Positions 2 to 6,484 of a DNA stretch of 64,000 nt are shown piece by piece. The stretch lies in NCBI RefSeq assembly GCF_017696085.1, contig NZ_JAAORH010000003.1, forward strand, positions 1 through 64,000. Direction: 5' to 3'. This DNA comes from Prochlorococcus marinus XMU1410 (lineage in GTDB: Bacteria > Cyanobacteriota > Cyanobacteriia > PCC-6307 > Cyanobiaceae). Position 1 is the first letter of the stretch; the number at the start of each line of letters is the position of its first letter. Both the position numbers and the translations under genes were made by a program. The notes under the pieces were generated by a model. The model saw nothing but the letters and a program-made list of their open reading frames with translations, ran no database searches and was not told the DNA's origin.

Positions 2-196
2 AGTGATGAATCTAGTAGTGATGAATCTAGTAGTGATGAATCTAGTAGTGATGAATCTAGTAGTGATGAATCTAGTAGTGATGAATCTAGTAGTGATGAA
101 TCTAGTGAGGAAGAGTCAAGTGAGACAGAATCTAGTGATGAAGAATCTAGTGATGAAGAATCTAGTGATGAAGAATCTAGTGATAAAGAATCTTCT
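2..196 (+). repeat. in-frame 15-bp tandem repeat encoding Ser-Asp-Glu-Ser-Ser units
   Basis: Seven consecutive copies of AGTGATGAATCTAGT, identical at every base, occupy 2-106. After a short variable stretch come three copies of TCTAGTGATGAAGAA (about 132-176) and decayed units to about 196. In the CHAT reading frame they encode SDESS and SDEES units. The array probably continues upstream of the window. Perfect codon identity between copies points to recent slipped-strand expansion, so copy number may vary between strains. Confidence 0.95.
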
Positions 197-1693
197 AGTT
201 CAGAAAAAGCAGATGAAAAAGATTCAAAGCCCTCAAAAGCTTCAGGAGATAGGAACAAAAAAGATAAAGAATCAAGAAATAAAATTATTAATCAAGAAAA
301 TAGAATTGCCTTTGCAAAAGTACCAAAAACGGAGGTCCTCTCAAATTTGAATAAATCTATGAGTATAAATAGAACAAACACAATTGATGTTCTTAATTTA
401 GATAAATCACTTAATTCTGGAACAAATCCGGCTGATATCCAAAGACAACTAAAAATAGCTAAATCAAAGAAAAGAAACGCAACATCTCTCACAAGATTAT
501 TCTATAAAGAAAAATTATTTGCCTCCAACTCCCAATCTATAAAATCTAACGAATCAAAAATATTCTTTGAAAAGAATTCATATAATCCTGCTGTAATGCA
601 TCTCCGCTTTACTAAAGCAGCCGGAAAAACTATTACAGAAAATACAGATTCCTTTCTTGATATAACTTTAATTCCATCTGAAGGCGAAGTGATCGGGAAA
701 AGAGTTGAATTATCAATGAAAGAATTTGGTAAAAATTTAGGACTTTTATATTCACAATTATCTCGACAAGAAAACTTAAATGTTGAACTTGAATCTTCAC
801 CTTCAAGAGTGTTGAATAATATGATTTTTGAGAGTATTAAATCTGATTTAGAAAAATTAAAAGTAACTACGCTACTTATTTCTGCAGATAGAGGACTGCA
901 AGCAATACCTTACGCTGCCCTGCACGATGGGGAAAATTACTTTGGTGATTCCTATGCTTTTTCAATTACACCTTCTTTAGGTTTAACAGATATAAGTATC
1001 TCTGATAGTGAAGATAAAATGCTACTGGCGATTGGAGCTTCAGAATTTAGAGAATTAGCTCCTTTACCTCTAGTAGGACAAGAATTATCAAAAATTGGAG
1101 GAACAAAAAACAAAGAAATTATTTTCAATAAAGAATTCACACCAGAAAGTTTCTTTGAAAAAGCAATTCAGGAAAAATATGACACGATTCATATTGCTAC
1201 ACATGCCGAATTCAAACCTGGTGGTCCTAATGCCTCAAGATTATTTTCAGGGACAACACCAATAACATTAGATAATTTTTCAATACTGAGAAAAGGACGA
1301 ATTGGCAATCCTCTAGATTTAGTTGTTTTTAGTGCTTGTAGAACTGCATTAGGCGATCCAGAAACTGAATTAGGTTTTAGTGGTTTAGCCTTACAGGCTG
1401 GTGCAAAAAGTGCTATTGGCACACTTTGGTACGTGGATGATGTGATGACCTCTGCTTATTTTGTACAAATGTATAAGTTTTTAGATTTGGGTATTCCAAA
1501 GGCAGAAGCTATGCAATTAACTAGAAGACTTTTTGCTCAAAAACTTATAACTTTAGAAGATGATAAATTAATTGGATTTAATAATTTACCTCTATTAGAA
1601 AATTTAAACTTATCTCAAAAAAGGCTGATTAAAAATGGTTTGAATAACCCATTTTTCTGGGCAGGGATAGAGCTAATGGGTTCGCCTTGGTAA
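2..1693 (+). CDS. CHAT-domain (caspase-like) protein, 5'-truncated by window edge
   Basis: The frame beginning at base 2 is open without interruption to the stop at 1693, so the gene starts upstream of the window. Visible order: an acidic Ser/Asp/Glu repeat tract (to about base 200), a Lys/Asn-rich linker, then a CHAT domain over the last 350 or so residues. The expected His-Cys dyad is present: His in an ATHAEF motif (codon at 1202) and Cys in FSACRTALG (codon at 1337), and the protein ends in the usual WAGIELMG-like strand. CHAT proteins are clan CD peptidases related to caspases and separase, usually with TPR repeats in front; that part would be off-window. The first usable start inside the window is a TTG at 347, but the repeat tract is clearly in the same frame. 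It is followed by a DUF928 gene and a CHASE2 cyclase on the same strand. Substrate unknown. Confidence 0.85.
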   Translation, partial: SDESSSDESSSDESSSDESSSDESSSDESSSDESSEEESSETESSDEESSDEESSDEESSDKESSSSEKADEKDSKPSKASGDRNKKDKESRNKIINQENRIAFAKVPKTEVLSNLNKSMSINRTNTIDVLNLDKSLNSGTNPADIQRQLKIAKSKKRNATSLTRLFYKEKLFASNSQSIKSNESKIFFEKNSYNPAVMHLRFTKAAGKTITENTDSFLDITLIPSEGEVIGKRVELSMKEFGKNLGLLYSQLSRQENLNVELESSPSRVLNNMIFESIKSDLEKLKVTTLLISADRGLQAIPYAALHDGENYFGDSYAFSITPSLGLTDISISDSEDKMLLAIGASEFRELAPLPLVGQELSKIGGTKNKEIIFNKEFTPESFFEKAIQEKYDTIHIATHAEFKPGGPNASRLFSGTTPITLDNFSILRKGRIGNPLDLVVFSACRTALGDPETELGFSGLALQAGAKSAIGTLWYVDDVMTSAYFVQMYKFLDLGIPKAEAMQLTRRLFAQKLITLEDDKLIGFNNLPLLENLNLSQKRLIKNGLNNPFFWAGIELMGSPW

Positions 1694-1728
1694 AAAATTG
1701 TTATTCTTAAATAAAGTATTTAAATTCT

Positions 1729-2370
1729 TTGAAAAATCTCGCATTTATTATTTTAATAGTCTCATCACTTATCTTTCCTAACAAGATAAAAGGTCAAGAT
1801 GAGATGTTGAATATTGGTTTGGCTTTCCCCGGAAGAAGGGTTGGAGGAGGTACTAGAGGTGAATGTAGTGCAAGAAAAATAATGCATCTTGTCCCAGAGT
1901 CAAATATTGCTTTTCAAAATGAGTTAGGTCATTTTGCATTAATTATTGGCCCTTCAAATGACCCTAAAGACATTAATATTAACTTTAAAGAATTTGAAGA
2001 AACACAAAAAAATAAGATAGATTTAAACGATTTTAAAATAAAAGCCTCTAAAGAAAAAGTATTTTTAATTTCAATTCCTAAGCAAAAAATACCTTTTGTT
2101 TTGGAATCTTCATTTGATTGTAATGATAATACTGATATGGGTTTTGACTTTAATTTTATACAAGATGATTCACCACCTGCTCAAACTTTAATTGCACCAT
2201 CAATTTATCAGAAAAATAAAAATGAAGAAGACAAAATGGCTTGGCTTTCTAAATTTTGTGATAAAAATATTTCACAAAGTTCTTTAAGCGAGAAATTCAA
2301 AATTGGTGATTTCTTTGATGAAAATTGGGCGAAAGATATCGATGTTACTTGTTTAAATAAACTATCTTAA
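1729..2370 (+). CDS. DUF928-family exported protein
   Basis: 213 residues starting at TTG (1729), with an N-terminal hydrophobic segment of about 22 residues that looks like a secretion signal. The mature part begins with a GRRVGGGTRGEC motif, the hallmark I recognise for DUF928, and contains further Cys residues (about 47, 129, 172 and 205) that could form disulfides. In filamentous cyanobacteria DUF928 genes are commonly found beside CHASE2 and CHAT/TPR genes, as here. It lies 35 bases after the CHAT gene and 8 bases before the cyclase, consistent with one operon. Its biochemical role is unknown; location in the periplasm is inferred from the signal. No ATG precedes the hydrophobic segment, so the TTG start is the best choice. 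Confidence 0.75.
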   Translation: MKNLAFIILIVSSLIFPNKIKGQDEMLNIGLAFPGRRVGGGTRGECSARKIMHLVPESNIAFQNELGHFALIIGPSNDPKDININFKEFEETQKNKIDLNDFKIKASKEKVFLISIPKQKIPFVLESSFDCNDNTDMGFDFNFIQDDSPPAQTLIAPSIYQKNKNEEDKMAWLSKFCDKNISQSSLSEKFKIGDFFDENWAKDIDVTCLNKLS

Positions 2371-2378
2371 TTAAAGAT

Positions 2379-4235
2379 ATGTTTAAGAAATTAATAAAAG
2401 CCTCAGTCAATTCAAGCTTCTATTTATTAGTTATTTTATTTTGCTCCATTTTATCTTTTAGAGGTGTTACACAAAATCTTGATCTTATAATTTATGACTC
2501 CTTATTAAATAAATTTCCTAAAAAAAATAAGGCTGAATCTAAAACAATAGTTGTTGGGATAACAGAAAAAGATATTGAAAAATATGGATGGCCTATTGAT
2601 GATATTTATCTTTTTGAAGTAATTAGAAATTTAGATAAAGCAGACTCCTCAAGTATCGTTCTTGACTTATATAGAAATGTAGGAGTAGGAAAAGGAGCAG
2701 ATCAACTTGCTTCCTTTAGCAAAGAGAATCCAAAGGTAATTAGTATTTTTAATGTTGCAGAGGGGATATCCTCAATTCCAAATTTCCCTCCAGAAAGGCA
2801 GGCTTTTAATGATATCCCTGTCGATGTAGATAATGTAATCCGAAGAAATTTAGTAGGGGTAGATCGTAAGAAATTTAATTTGCCTCCACAATTTGTAAGC
2901 ATTCCTTCCAGGATGGTTGAAATTCATCAAAAATTAAATAATGAAATTTTTGATATAGATGAGCAATTTAGTGAGGGGAAAATTAACACTATTAAAAAAT
3001 ACTCTGGAGGTTATACAAATGTTGATTCAAATGGATTTCAAATCTTAATAGACTACCCAAGATCAAATTATGTCCCAAAATATAGTATCGAATCAATACT
3101 AAATAAAAACTTTTCTAAAAATTTTTTTAAAAATAAAATGGTTGTTATTGGCGCAACTGCGCCATCACTTAAAGATATATTCGCTTTCCCTTCGAGCAGA
3201 TTTATAAAAGATAGCCAACTTATGTATATAAGTGGAGCCGAAATCCATGCGCATAGAGCGAATCAACTGCTTTCTCTCCAAAATGGAAATACTCTACAAA
3301 TTAATACCATAAATCCAACATTAGAATTATTGCTAATAATTCTATTAACATTATCGACAGCTTTATATATAGAAAAAAGTAAGAAAATTTTGTATGGATT
3401 ATTAGGTTTAATAATCATAATTTCATCTTTATCAATAGCTGTGTTTTTATCATTTATTTCAGGATATTGGATTGAATTTTCCCTACCAATTATTTCTATT
3501 ATTTTAGTTTCTACAGTTTCATGGGTTAAAAAGGCCGCAGAACAGCAAAAACAAAAAGCTTTGATGCAAAAACTTTTAGGTCAAACTACATCTCCAGAAG
3601 TTGCGGAAGAATTATGGAAACAAAAAGATGCACTAATAGAAAACGGCAAGTTTCCTGGAACTGAATTACCTGTAACTATTCTATTTAGTGACACCGTTAG
3701 TTTTAGTAGTGTTTCAGAGAAAATGACTCCTACAGAATTATTAGACTGGCTTAATAATGGTATGGAAAAGTTTGTAAAAATAATTTCAGAAAATGGAGGA
3801 ATGGTAAATAAGTTTACTGGTGACGGATTCCTTGCTGTCTTCGGGGCACCTGTAAGAAAATCATTAGAGGAATCTTCCAATGCTTCAATTAAAACTGCTA
3901 TTGAGATTAGAAATGCAATAGATGATCTAATAGAAGATTCAGGTAAGAAAAATTTACCGCCTCTACGCTTAAGGATTGGGATTCATAGTGGAAAAATTAT
4001 CACTGGATCTATGGGAGGAGCTGAAAAGATTGAATATGCTCTAATCGGAGATAGCGTAAATGTAGCTGCCAGACTTGAATCACTAAATAAGGAGAAGATG
4101 AACAATAACTGCAGAATTCTTGTTTCTGGAGATAGTCTTAAGTTTCTAAAAAAAGAAAATTATAATATTGAAAATTGGGGAGAATGCAAAGTTAAAGGGA
4201 GAGAATCACTTGTGGAAGTTTATGAAATTCTTTGA
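2379..4235 (+). CDS. CHASE2-domain class III adenylate cyclase
   Basis: 618 residues. Order: N-terminal membrane helix (about 12-30), extracytoplasmic CHASE2 sensor (about 35-305), a group of hydrophobic helices (about 313-382), and a C-terminal class III nucleotide cyclase domain (about 415-618). Both metal-binding aspartates are present (D438 in LFSDTVSFSS and D482 in FTGDGFLAVFG), as is the IGDSVNVAARLES strand carrying the Asn and Arg used in catalysis, so the enzyme should be active and make cAMP from ATP. CHASE2 senses an unknown external signal. It sits 8 bases after the DUF928 gene. A membrane protein with a cyclic-nucleotide-binding-like domain lies convergently just downstream, which makes a local cAMP circuit plausible but unproven. 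Confidence 0.92.
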   Translation: MFKKLIKASVNSSFYLLVILFCSILSFRGVTQNLDLIIYDSLLNKFPKKNKAESKTIVVGITEKDIEKYGWPIDDIYLFEVIRNLDKADSSSIVLDLYRNVGVGKGADQLASFSKENPKVISIFNVAEGISSIPNFPPERQAFNDIPVDVDNVIRRNLVGVDRKKFNLPPQFVSIPSRMVEIHQKLNNEIFDIDEQFSEGKINTIKKYSGGYTNVDSNGFQILIDYPRSNYVPKYSIESILNKNFSKNFFKNKMVVIGATAPSLKDIFAFPSSRFIKDSQLMYISGAEIHAHRANQLLSLQNGNTLQINTINPTLELLLIILLTLSTALYIEKSKKILYGLLGLIIIISSLSIAVFLSFISGYWIEFSLPIISIILVSTVSWVKKAAEQQKQKALMQKLLGQTTSPEVAEELWKQKDALIENGKFPGTELPVTILFSDTVSFSSVSEKMTPTELLDWLNNGMEKFVKIISENGGMVNKFTGDGFLAVFGAPVRKSLEESSNASIKTAIEIRNAIDDLIEDSGKKNLPPLRLRIGIHSGKIITGSMGGAEKIEYALIGDSVNVAARLESLNKEKMNNNCRILVSGDSLKFLKKENYNIENWGECKVKGRESLVEVYEIL

Positions 4236-4265
4236 AAATAGTTTAATAAAAATTTAAGAAGAGTT

Positions 4266-4943
4266 TTATTTTTTATTTGATCTAATTAATTTGTCACATA
4301 AGTTTCTCGCAATTAGTGAATTTAACTTTTCAAATAATTCTGGTTTTCTATCTTTAATCTTTTGAAGCTTAGCCTTACTCCAACTGATAGCAAAAATATC
4401 ATTAGAAATTACATTGGCTGATGTTTTATCTCCCGTAATAAAAGAAAATTCTGAAATCCAATCACCTTTCTTTAGTTTTGCTACCTCCACGTTATTTTCT
4501 ATTGTTATTGATGCTTCACCATCTACTACAAATGAAAGATTTTCAAATTCGCTATTTTTATTGACAAGTTTCAAAGACTTTTTATTTTTATGTTTAATAA
4601 TATCCCCAAATTTAATCATATTTTTAAATTCAAATGGCAGAAATATGAAAAAGTAATTTTTATATGTCTCTCTCCAACCTATTGGGACGCATCTTATGGA
4701 TCTGGAATAATAAAAAATTGAAATCATATAAATATTTAAGCAAAAATGTAGTATTGCTAGTAATAAAATAGAAACGTGCTCTGCTGTTTCAAGTCCAACC
4801 CAATAACAAAAAAAGAAATTCGCTATCGAAAGTGCTACGATAATGAATCTTAAAACTATAAGAGAAGAACAAACGAAAGAAAGTCCTTCTATCGTTCCTA
4901 AAATAGCTTCTACCCAATCTGGAGTTAATACAAAGTTAATCAT
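4266..4943 (-). CDS. membrane protein with cyclic-nucleotide-binding-like domain
   Basis: 225 residues. Residues 1-85 hold about three hydrophobic helices; residues 110-215 form a beta-rich domain resembling a cNMP-binding (cupin-like) fold, with the sequence SEFSFITGDKTSANV matching the phosphate-binding cassette in length. The canonical GE is SE, and the Arg that normally contacts the cyclic phosphate is replaced by Thr, with Lys just before it. Three helices followed by a cNMP-like domain is the layout of eukaryotic Popeye-domain proteins, which also use a modified cassette. No DNA-binding helix-turn-helix is visible, so it is not a CRP-type regulator. It is convergent with the CHASE2 cyclase (30-base gap). 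Ligand binding is an inference. Confidence 0.65.
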   Translation of the reverse strand: MINFVLTPDWVEAILGTIEGLSFVCSSLIVLRFIIVALSIANFFFCYWVGLETAEHVSILLLAILHFCLNIYMISIFYYSRSIRCVPIGWRETYKNYFFIFLPFEFKNMIKFGDIIKHKNKKSLKLVNKNSEFENLSFVVDGEASITIENNVEVAKLKKGDWISEFSFITGDKTSANVISNDIFAISWSKAKLQKIKDRKPELFEKLNSLIARNLCDKLIRSNKK

Positions 4944-5101: not shown

Positions 5102-6484
5102 ATGAAGAATCTAAGAAAAGATTCAGGGTTCTTTAGACCTGGATTCTCTAATTTTTCATCTATTCAAACTTTGCTTGGAGATTTCATAAACGATAGAACT
5201 TCTCCAAGTCTTCTAGAAAAAATCCATGAAGAAAAAGCAAAAAGACTTATAAATAATACATGGGATAATGGAGAACCTTTTGAGAGGGTTATCAGTAGCA
5301 ATGAAGATTTAAGAGAAATTCTTTGTAATCCCAATATTTACAAGAATTCAATTTGCATTATAGAACCAGCAGATCATGTTGGTAAAAATATTATTGGGGA
5401 GGATGTAAGAGCTTCAAGTAACATTGCTTCATTATGCCAATACATTGCAGACTGCGATTCAATACTAATTCCATTATGGAAAACAGGTAAACTTGACAAC
5501 CAATTATTGATTGATTTACTAAAAAACTGTTTGGCAGTATTTGTGGAAGGTGGGCATCCAACAGTGAAGGATTCTAAAAGTTTTGAAGGATTAAATATAT
5601 CATTAAATGAATTACAAGAATTTACTGAAGAACTTTTACTCTCAAGAGAGCTAAAAACAGCTCCATCTATCTTTATATGCCTTGGCCATCAGTTAGCTGC
5701 ACAGGCTCATATTAGACTTATTAAAAAAGCAACACATCAAATAACTAATCTATTAAAACCAGAAATAATTTCATCTTCATGTCATTACGATAACCTTATA
5801 AATGTATGTAATGAAATAATAAATACTGGAGAAAATTTAGCTATTTATAAAGATGAAAATACTTCAGACGATGTACCAGGAATAGAGGTTGCTAAAGGTT
5901 GGGATGATCCCTGCTTTGCTGTTGCATTAAATGAAATTCCAGAAGTTGGGCAAGTTGAATTATTACATTATTCTCATAATGGTATTCACCAAAGTAAAGA
6001 CTTTTCTAAATTACTTTTACATCATGAAGTAACAAGTGAACAAAACGTTGGAATAGTTGAACAATCAGTGACTTTTGAGAAAGATTTAAATATTGTTATG
6101 TTTCACAGTGACGAGGTAAATGAAGAAGCGATATTATTTTCAAATTGGGCATATGGATTACTTCAAAAAGCAATTGCACCAATAAGAAAGATTATTTCAG
6201 TTTCTGAGTTTTCTTGGCTTTTAAGCTTACCTGATTCAATTGAAATTGTATGCTCTACAAGTGCTGCAGGTAAGTTATGTACTGAAGTTTCAGCTACTTG
6301 TATTAACTATACTGATTATGAAACCCAGCATAAAAGAAGATCTTTCACCTTCCAATTTCATCCTGAATTGCTTGATGATCTAAGAGAATTTAATAAATCA
6401 GGAATGCCCTCCTACGAGAAATTAAAAAATGATGATGGAGTTAGAATGTTAATGAGAGTTATTTACGAATCAATTACTGATTAA
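5102..6484 (+). CDS. class I glutamine amidotransferase-like protein
   Basis: 460 residues. The centre holds a class I GATase-like nucleophile elbow, ICLGHQLAAQ with Cys193, and near the C terminus FQFHPEL supplies His420 and Glu422, so a full Cys-His-Glu triad is present. About 190 residues precede the Cys and about 220 separate it from the HPE motif; both stretches are longer than in typical GATases, so this is an expanded or divergent member. No synthase partner domain is fused or adjacent. It stands alone behind its own promoter. Hydrolysis of glutamine is suggested by the motifs; the acceptor is unknown. Confidence 0.7.
   Translation: MKNLRKDSGFFRPGFSNFSSIQTLLGDFINDRTSPSLLEKIHEEKAKRLINNTWDNGEPFERVISSNEDLREILCNPNIYKNSICIIEPADHVGKNIIGEDVRASSNIASLCQYIADCDSILIPLWKTGKLDNQLLIDLLKNCLAVFVEGGHPTVKDSKSFEGLNISLNELQEFTEELLLSRELKTAPSIFICLGHQLAAQAHIRLIKKATHQITNLLKPEIISSSCHYDNLINVCNEIINTGENLAIYKDENTSDDVPGIEVAKGWDDPCFAVALNEIPEVGQVELLHYSHNGIHQSKDFSKLLLHHEVTSEQNVGIVEQSVTFEKDLNIVMFHSDEVNEEAILFSNWAYGLLQKAIAPIRKIISVSEFSWLLSLPDSIEIVCSTSAAGKLCTEVSATCINYTDYETQHKRRSFTFQFHPELLDDLREFNKSGMPSYEKLKNDDGVRMLMRVIYESITD

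Follow-up and report, generated by a model that had tools for sequence, protein, structure and literature searches.

In marine Synechococcus the island module Syn_GI122 was described in 2020 as comprising secreted CHAT proteins and/or adenylate cyclases near cyclic nucleotide (cNMP)-binding proteins (PMC7522525). We analysed a stretch of 64,000 nt from Prochlorococcus marinus XMU1410 (bases 1-64,000 of contig NZ_JAAORH010000003.1, assembly GCF_017696085.1; hereafter the window), which opens with a block of four genes encoding a CHAT protein, a DUF928-like protein, a CHASE2-cyclase and a small membrane protein that we name Pop. The composition of this block (CHAT, cyclase, cNMP-like neighbour) fits the published description as worded in that paper, secretion of the CHAT protein being a prediction in our case, and Syn_GI122 as described there resembles the loci with an MscS-CNBD protein, a CHAT protein and a cyclase that we find elsewhere in the family. 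However, Syn_GI122 sits in Synechococcus, whereas the window block belongs to Prochlorococcus, with Pop taking the place of the channel or CRP; the main text of the paper contains neither the word ‘CHASE2’ nor the word ‘secretion’, and DUF928 goes unmentioned in its passages on the module. A CHASE2-DUF928 neighbourhood has been noted in Nostoc (PMC5587647). In the open-licence PMC literature no paper was found on CHASE2 together with a CHAT domain, or on a CHAT domain together with two-partner secretion (TPS). Because similar sets recur elsewhere, the window block is, judging from gene content, best seen as a variant of a family-wide module that has a different membrane partner.

Other described systems each share part of this arrangement. 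As in type Vb two-partner secretion (TpsA/TpsB), a ShlB-type TpsB is encoded divergently from an exoprotein whose N-terminal part resembles a signal peptide followed by a TPS domain; unlike in that system, the cargo ends in a CHAT domain and has a genetic link to a CHASE2 sensor, and its TPS match stays below cut-off. Cyanobacterial TPR-CHAT proteins also have DUF928 and CHASE2 nearby in some loci, but in the one checked (L112) CHAT follows TPRs, whereas the CHAT domain of the window is preceded by a TPS-like domain, Ig-like repeats and an acidic linker. With the animal Popeye (POPDC) proteins, as outlined in PMC8706714, Pop shares an atypical cNMP-like domain that comes after membrane helices and has a divergent phosphate-binding cassette, yet the window copy falls under the Pfam cut-off, and the motifs DSPE and FQVT given for Popeye proteins (PMC6562197) are, by eye, absent from the nine aligned Pop sequences. 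In Pycsar, too, a cyclase adjoins a membrane protein with a cNMP-like domain, but the window block has a CHASE2 sensor, probably exported partners and an effector without the phosphate-binding Arg.

The four open reading frames lie at 2-1693, 1729-2370 and 2379-4235 on the forward strand and at 4266-4943 on the reverse strand, separated by 35, 8 and 30 bases, exactly as an earlier note on the window had placed them. They are one unit of which the window shows only part, and we hold the overall anatomy of the block with high confidence. The window genome (G000; G handles denote genomes and L handles denote loci or stretches examined) comprises 1.63 Mb in 4 contigs, and window base 1 is base 1 of its contig C3, so the CHAT gene is cut, the contig edge falling within a Ser-Ser-Asp-Glu repeat. 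The earlier note recognised a real unit of four genes and missed the N-terminal part of the exoprotein and its exporter TpsB, both of which are on contig C2. The features of the window are as follows.

2-1693, forward strand: CHAT exoprotein, C-terminal 563 residues; 5' end lost at the contig edge, remainder on contig C2.
2-226, forward strand: Ser/Asp/Glu repeat linker; limits approximate, by eye.
800-1684, forward strand: CHAT domain, residues 267-561 (E 1.2e-39).
1202-1204 and 1337-1339, forward strand: CHAT His401 and Cys446, numbered in the 563-residue frame.
1729-2370, forward strand: DUF928-like protein, probably exported; N-terminal hydrophobic segment and predicted Ig-like beta-sandwich.
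2379-4235, forward strand: CHASE2 - class III nucleotide cyclase, the sole such cyclase found in G000.
2433-3359, forward strand: CHASE2 sensor domain, residues 19-327 (Pfam E 1.1e-41).
3669-4211, forward strand: cyclase catalytic domain, residues 431-611 (Pfam class III cyclase E 4.7e-28).
4266-4943, reverse strand: Pop, small membrane protein with 2-3 hydrophobic helices and an atypical cyclic-nucleotide-binding-like domain.
4356-4568, reverse strand: Pop residues 126-196, resembling a cNMP-binding domain; Glu165 retained, Thr174 at the expected Arg position.
4180-4380, strandless: recombination breakpoint from sliding identity, type I block to the left and type II-like Pop to the right.
5102-6484, forward strand: GATase-like protein, 460 residues; found beside the block in all nine carriers, full length in none of the non-carriers among 60 genomes searched.

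G067, a carrier whose locus is uncut, encodes a CHAT protein of 1171 residues next to a divergent ShlB-type exporter, TpsB. The G000 exporter is found at C2:43473-45143 and is 54% identical to that of G067, while the N-terminal part of the G000 exoprotein is a 1084-residue open frame extending to the end of contig C2. Both TpsB copies match ShlB above the cut-off (E 7.5e-12 in G000, 2.5e-12 in G067), and POTRA_2 in the G000 copy scores just below it (23.1 bits vs 24). By eye the G000 exoprotein has a signal-peptide-like start; its N-terminus matches TIGR01901 with E 1e-4 across 77 of 79 positions, under the cut-off, and Ig-like repeats (weak Big_12) come after the TPS-like region. A profile made from six exoprotein N-termini matches L105 and L112 directly and L129 after iteration, for which the Pfam TPS E values are 3.3e-46, 3.5e-54 and 7.2e-46, respectively; in L129 a single TPS and CHAT protein adjoins a DUF928 gene. 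Because of the signal-peptide-like start, the TPS-like domain and the TpsB exporter alongside, the CHAT domain is probably exported and not cytoplasmic; an ordinary effector of cyclic AMP (cAMP) would probably have to sit on the other side of the membrane.

The CHAT domain itself (PF12770) carries His401 and Cys446 in all eight aligned copies, which agrees with the intact dyad that the earlier note had read in it. That note had also suggested looking for TPRs upstream of CHAT, and none are among the Pfam families reported for the eight CHAT-protein copies scanned, two of which are cut short. Across strains the middle or stalk of the exoprotein is hypervariable, with 917 to 1516 residues in the six complete copies, and the CHAT end is 95-97% identical within the type I alleles defined below. 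In some strains the middle includes FG-GAP and Ig-like repeats (genes in L048-L053 and L007).

Within the genus the cyclase is found in 9 of 200 genomes and Pop in the same nine, always adjacent. Strong CHAT matches (E <1e-160) occur in eight of the nine carriers, the contig of the ninth (G204) ending within the DUF928-like gene; any CHAT match at all is found in 28 of the 200, 20 of them with weak matches alone. TpsB and an adjoining small DUF3307-type protein (Pfam-checked in G000 alone, assigned by eye in the other copies) are present at seven of the nine loci, the remaining two being cut. Among 60 near-complete genus genomes, three have a class III cyclase, one apiece, and 57 have none; the GATase-like protein, which flanks the block in every carrier, is full length in three of the 60, exactly their carriers, and left as a short remnant in a fourth. 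The non-carrier G165 (L135:9318-9499) has, flanked by the same neighbours, the final 42 residues of DUF3307 joined to the final 25 of the GATase-like protein, a junction most simply explained as the scar of a single deletion of the block. This supports the block as one co-inherited unit that is unusual in Prochlorococcus, as had been proposed, with its genes linked in related carriers. No cyclase or Pop relative was found in the viral contigs searched and no Pop match in phages; in the plasmid collection there was one weak match of 61 residues to Pop and none for the 460-residue GATase-like protein, so the searched collections give no sign of carriage by phages or plasmids.

Similar sets recur outside the genus, where a cyclase profile matched 58 of 151 family genomes at 1e-15. 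We took 27 loci, one per genome, from 30 such genomes with a near full-length cyclase match. A DUF928-like protein is encoded at 25 of them, TpsB at 16, CHAT at 16, a TPS-like domain at 14, an MscS-CNBD-type protein at 13 and DUF3307 at 10, and at seven TPS and CHAT are fused in one protein. Gene calls at these loci and at the DUF928 loci below are crude (longest open frames of at least 80 residues), and at L168, one of the 27, the simple gene caller lost the CHASE2 frame. Pfam MS_channel and cNMP_binding were confirmed in both MscS-CNBD proteins checked (L172 and L163); L172 and L173, chosen for weak Pop matches, stand outside the counts of 27. In the family cyclase tree the Prochlorococcus cyclases form one group with support of 100/100, in a data set for which the tool warns of long branches and unequal composition. 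At L163 (1682-8767) a 351-residue protein with two Pop-profile matches and, by eye, an export-like system come just before the CHASE2-cyclase. At L151, L153, L158, L166 and L167 a second cyclase of about 610-690 residues, with no CHASE2 detected, lies a few genes away.

More distant cyanobacteria were represented by 40 DUF928 loci, one each from 40 of the 47 genomes with a match. CHASE2 is the direct neighbour of DUF928 in 25, occupying 25 of 80 adjacent slots vs 2 of 491 slots further out, and within three genes of DUF928 there are CHAT at 10 loci, TPS at 9 and TpsB at 6. The L112 locus has TpsB, TPS, CHAT, DUF928 and CHASE2-cyclase in the order seen here, except that all of them lie on a single strand and that TPS and CHAT are encoded by two different genes.

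Two allele types of the block are evident among the carriers, type I in G000, G263, G236, G249, G222 and G204 and type II in G067, G342 and G311. The same two-way split is found in TpsB (7 genomes), the CHAT exoprotein (8), the DUF928-like protein (8) and the cyclase (9). Between types, identity is 53-56% for TpsB, 53-57% for the DUF928-like protein, 46-50% for the TPS region of the exoprotein, 69-72% for its CHAT domain and 67-69% for the cyclase. The flanking ychF and PolA are 97-100% identical in every pair compared and 97-99% identical between types, from 6 and 4 genomes with G311 as the sole type II representative. Within the cyclase the divergence is greatest in the first transmembrane segment (TM1, 32-38% identity), the later transmembrane region (43-51%) and CHASE2 (66-67%), and least in the cytoplasmic linker (87-89%) and the catalytic part (79%). 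In the six type I genomes Pop adjoins the GATase-like gene, while in the three type II genomes the block is inverted and DUF3307/TpsB adjoins it. The GATase-like protein is itself a mosaic between the two allele types.

Pop breaks this split. G000 has a type I block, yet its Pop shares 91% identity with the G067 copy and 77% with the G263 copy, and nucleotide identity along the window switches sides at about 4180-4380. One way to read this single recombinant is that the four exported or sensor parts are co-adapted, while Pop would need no matching and could read a diffusible signal. The recurrence of the DUF928-CHASE2 pair and the joint switching of the alleles point to direct contact among three partners: the probably exported CHAT protein, the DUF928-like protein and CHASE2.

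The cyclase keeps D438 and D482, which we take to be the metal Asp residues, and N561 and R565, presumably the transition-state Asn and Arg, in all nine carriers and in 42 of 42 CHASE2-cyclase homologues. K478, present in the window copy, is found in 34 of the 42, and position 554 is Ala in the window copy and in 23 of the 42; we assume these to be the adenine-specifying positions. ATP is a likely substrate rather than a fixed one, because the base-specifying residues of the cyclase do not settle it, and cAMP is the most likely product. The earlier note had singled out both metal Asp residues, and these, like the CHAT His and Cys, proved to be conserved, and its pairing of a sensor-cyclase with an adjoining membrane protein carrying a cNMP-like domain is likewise supported; the three-helix architecture it gave that protein is plausible, while the cNMP-like domain scores below cut-off. 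The ‘exported DUF928 protein’ of that note is probably exported but turned out to be a remote relative of DUF928 only.

For this DUF928-like protein Pfam gave no noteworthy match of any kind; no DUF928 (PF06051) match was obtained at 1729-2370 or anywhere in G000, and the link comes from a profile comparison (hhalign probability 90.5, E 1.6e-7). At the family loci, 27 proteins match the Prochlorococcus DUF928-like profile and 13 of the 27 also match a profile made from 40 DUF928 proteins. For the fold work 47 of 75 DUF928-like proteins were aligned, and an AlphaFold model with 46 relatives reached a pLDDT (model confidence) of 84.3. Foldseek with this model gave no PDB match at E <=0.001, and VIA-align gave a best Z of 6.6, to pilus chaperones among many Ig-like folds. 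The protein is thus predicted to be an Ig-like beta-sandwich, with nothing more specific supported. A pilus-chaperone function was considered and is not claimed.

All nine Pop copies weakly match both cNMP_binding and POPDC1-3. Against the Popeye family PF04831 the window copy scores 18.2 bits vs a cut-off of 28.1, with E up to 0.1 across the nine. In PDB the Pop profile matches cGMP-dependent kinases, PycTIR (E 8e-4) and CRP. The cassette of Pop reads W-I-S-E-F and then K-T-S-A-N, where the aligned MscS-CNBD proteins have FGE and R. An AlphaFold model of Pop with 8 near relatives (pLDDT 46.8) was too poor for a fold search. By analogy Pop perhaps works like a Popeye protein, although we do not class it as one. 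Among the matches listed Pop occurs in at least six loci, all of them Prochlorococcus, and in the 151 family genomes outside the genus there are just three weak matches, to cNMP domains of longer proteins. G000 has two cNMP-domain proteins, Pop and one that is NtcA-like by eye; since the latter is the sole other match, no transcriptional cAMP receptor is evident in this genome.

We favour the reading that the block is a surface-sensing, outside-in signalling module, with a confidence that stands midway between belief and doubt. TpsB, divergent and just upstream on the other contig, would export the long CHAT exoprotein, which would run from a signal peptide through a TPS-like domain, a variable beta-rich stalk and an acidic Ser-rich linker to CHAT. 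The DUF928-like Ig-fold protein would be exported to the periplasm and there, together with the exoprotein, control the periplasmic CHASE2 domain. A surface protein that is engaged, processed or lost would shift CHASE2 to another state, upon which the cyclase would make a cyclic nucleotide, most likely cAMP. Pop would be the receptor of this nucleotide, in the role that an MscS-CNBD channel may have in many relatives. The output would be rapid and located at the inner membrane instead of transcriptional, because beyond Pop there is just the one NtcA-like cNMP protein in the genome. We know of no ligand for DUF928 or CHASE2. In its full form the proposal is of a self-contained recombining circuit in a marine bacterium with a streamlined genome, in which the state of a TPS-secreted, caspase-like protein is passed by the DUF928-like protein and the CHASE2 cyclase to a Popeye-like effector that replaces the channel of relatives, the four outer parts co-evolving by contact and the effector, which would read a diffusible signal alone, recombining freely. 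We offer this full form tentatively, and its being right as a whole is doubtful. If the circuit is as outlined, a few Prochlorococcus strains carry a compact set that seemingly exports a caspase-like surface protein and reports on it via their sole cyclic-nucleotide enzyme, in a lineage where signalling of this sort is otherwise mostly absent. In the carriers a single block unites one cyclase with one candidate receptor, so that little background would interfere with tests of the complete circuit. A review reports picocyanobacteria to be without cAMP receptors and states that Prochlorococcus and Synechococcus account for most of the cyanobacterial strains in which an adenylate cyclase gene is missing (PMC4284465).

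Several observations weigh against the surface-sensing reading. The TPS domain of the carriers is under every curated cut-off, and Pfam gives no TPS match for the exoprotein of G000 or for the fused proteins at L153 and L170. The Prochlorococcus DUF928-like profile directly matches just 2 of the 40 Pfam-type DUF928 proteins. At the 40 DUF928 loci, 15 of 27 CHASE2 proteins are without a cyclase domain, so the DUF928-CHASE2 pair is not tied to cyclic nucleotides, and in the family the MscS-CNBD protein is present at just the 13 of 27 loci noted above, some loci being cut by contig ends. Adenylate cyclases usually have Asp or Thr at the position matching Ala554. The cNMP_binding (PF00027) match of Pop reaches 23 bits in the window copy, under the Pfam cut-off of 27.5 (31.7 bits in G204), and the phosphate-binding Arg is replaced by T174 in all nine copies, which keep E165. 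With the Arg missing and the domain below cut-off, Pop may bind something else or nothing. Pop is also convergent with the cyclase, outside the cyclase operon.

If Pop were an unrelated bystander of the cyclase, the block would be an export and sensing set whose nucleotide is read by something else. Its independent recombination in one genome, the missing canonical Arg and its convergent orientation would all fit; however, Pop is confined to the same 9 of 200 genomes as the cyclase, always next to it, and no other cNMP-domain protein except the NtcA-like one was found, which makes a bystander quite improbable. An anti-phage system of the Pycsar kind, in which infection would trigger the cyclic nucleotide and Pop would permeabilise the membrane, draws on matches of the PADLOC PycC models to the cyclase (best E 3.9e-27) and of the TIR-effector models to the cNMP domain of Pop (8.5e-8), on the match of the Pop profile to PycTIR, and on the pairing of a cyclase with a membrane effector, which is the PycTM arrangement as given in PMC11224242. 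Matches to PycC are expected of class III cyclases generally, though, and Pop has T174 where PycTIR has R97, the Arg that binds the phosphodiester. The family cyclase moreover goes with CHASE2, DUF928-like, CHAT and TPS parts, which the Pycsar text, in the portion available to us, leaves unmentioned. A Pycsar-like role is in our estimate decidedly unlikely.

In contact-dependent or kin recognition the CHAT exoprotein would be a polymorphic surface effector aimed at grazers or at cells nearby; the DUF928-like protein would chaperone or protect it, and the CHASE2-cyclase would report contact. Polymorphic toxins can be exported by TPS, among other routes, and caspase-like domains are known as toxin or processing domains at C-termini (PMC3482391, in which, as far as the text available to us extends, CHAT is not named). 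The hypervariable stalk, and the fact that TpsB, exoprotein, DUF928-like protein and cyclase differ as a set between flanks that are 97-99% identical between types, would suit such a role. Yet it is the C-terminal CHAT that is conserved (95-97% within type I) and the middle that varies, the opposite of the usual toxin pattern, and no immunity-like gene stood out in the locus maps, though no search was aimed at one. We consider this explanation unlikely. The model of the earlier note, in which cAMP from the CHASE2 cyclase is read by the membrane protein and coupled to a caspase-like protease that would serve controlled proteolysis or cell death, draws on the linkage of the genes and on the intact catalytic residues of CHAT and cyclase. 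Such a protease would have to be cytoplasmic, whereas CHAT is the C-terminus of an exoprotein with signal-peptide-like and TPS-like regions beside TpsB; moreover, of the 15 CHAT proteins encoded at DUF928 loci elsewhere, the majority open, by eye, with a hydrophobic segment like that of a signal peptide. This model now seems very improbable.

Other proteins with cNMP-binding or exoprotein features occur in these genomes. In G067 (L054:1020-3938) a 972-residue protein with a cNMP-binding domain adjoins an HlyD-like gene and is perhaps an export ABC transporter; cNMP-domain proteins of similar size are found in the non-carrier G117 and, below cut-off, in G017. Next to Pop the type II genomes carry an RTX-type exoprotein, which in G067 (L007:9044-11935) is 963 residues long and has RTX repeats, PA14 and Ig-like domains and a weak DUF4347 match.

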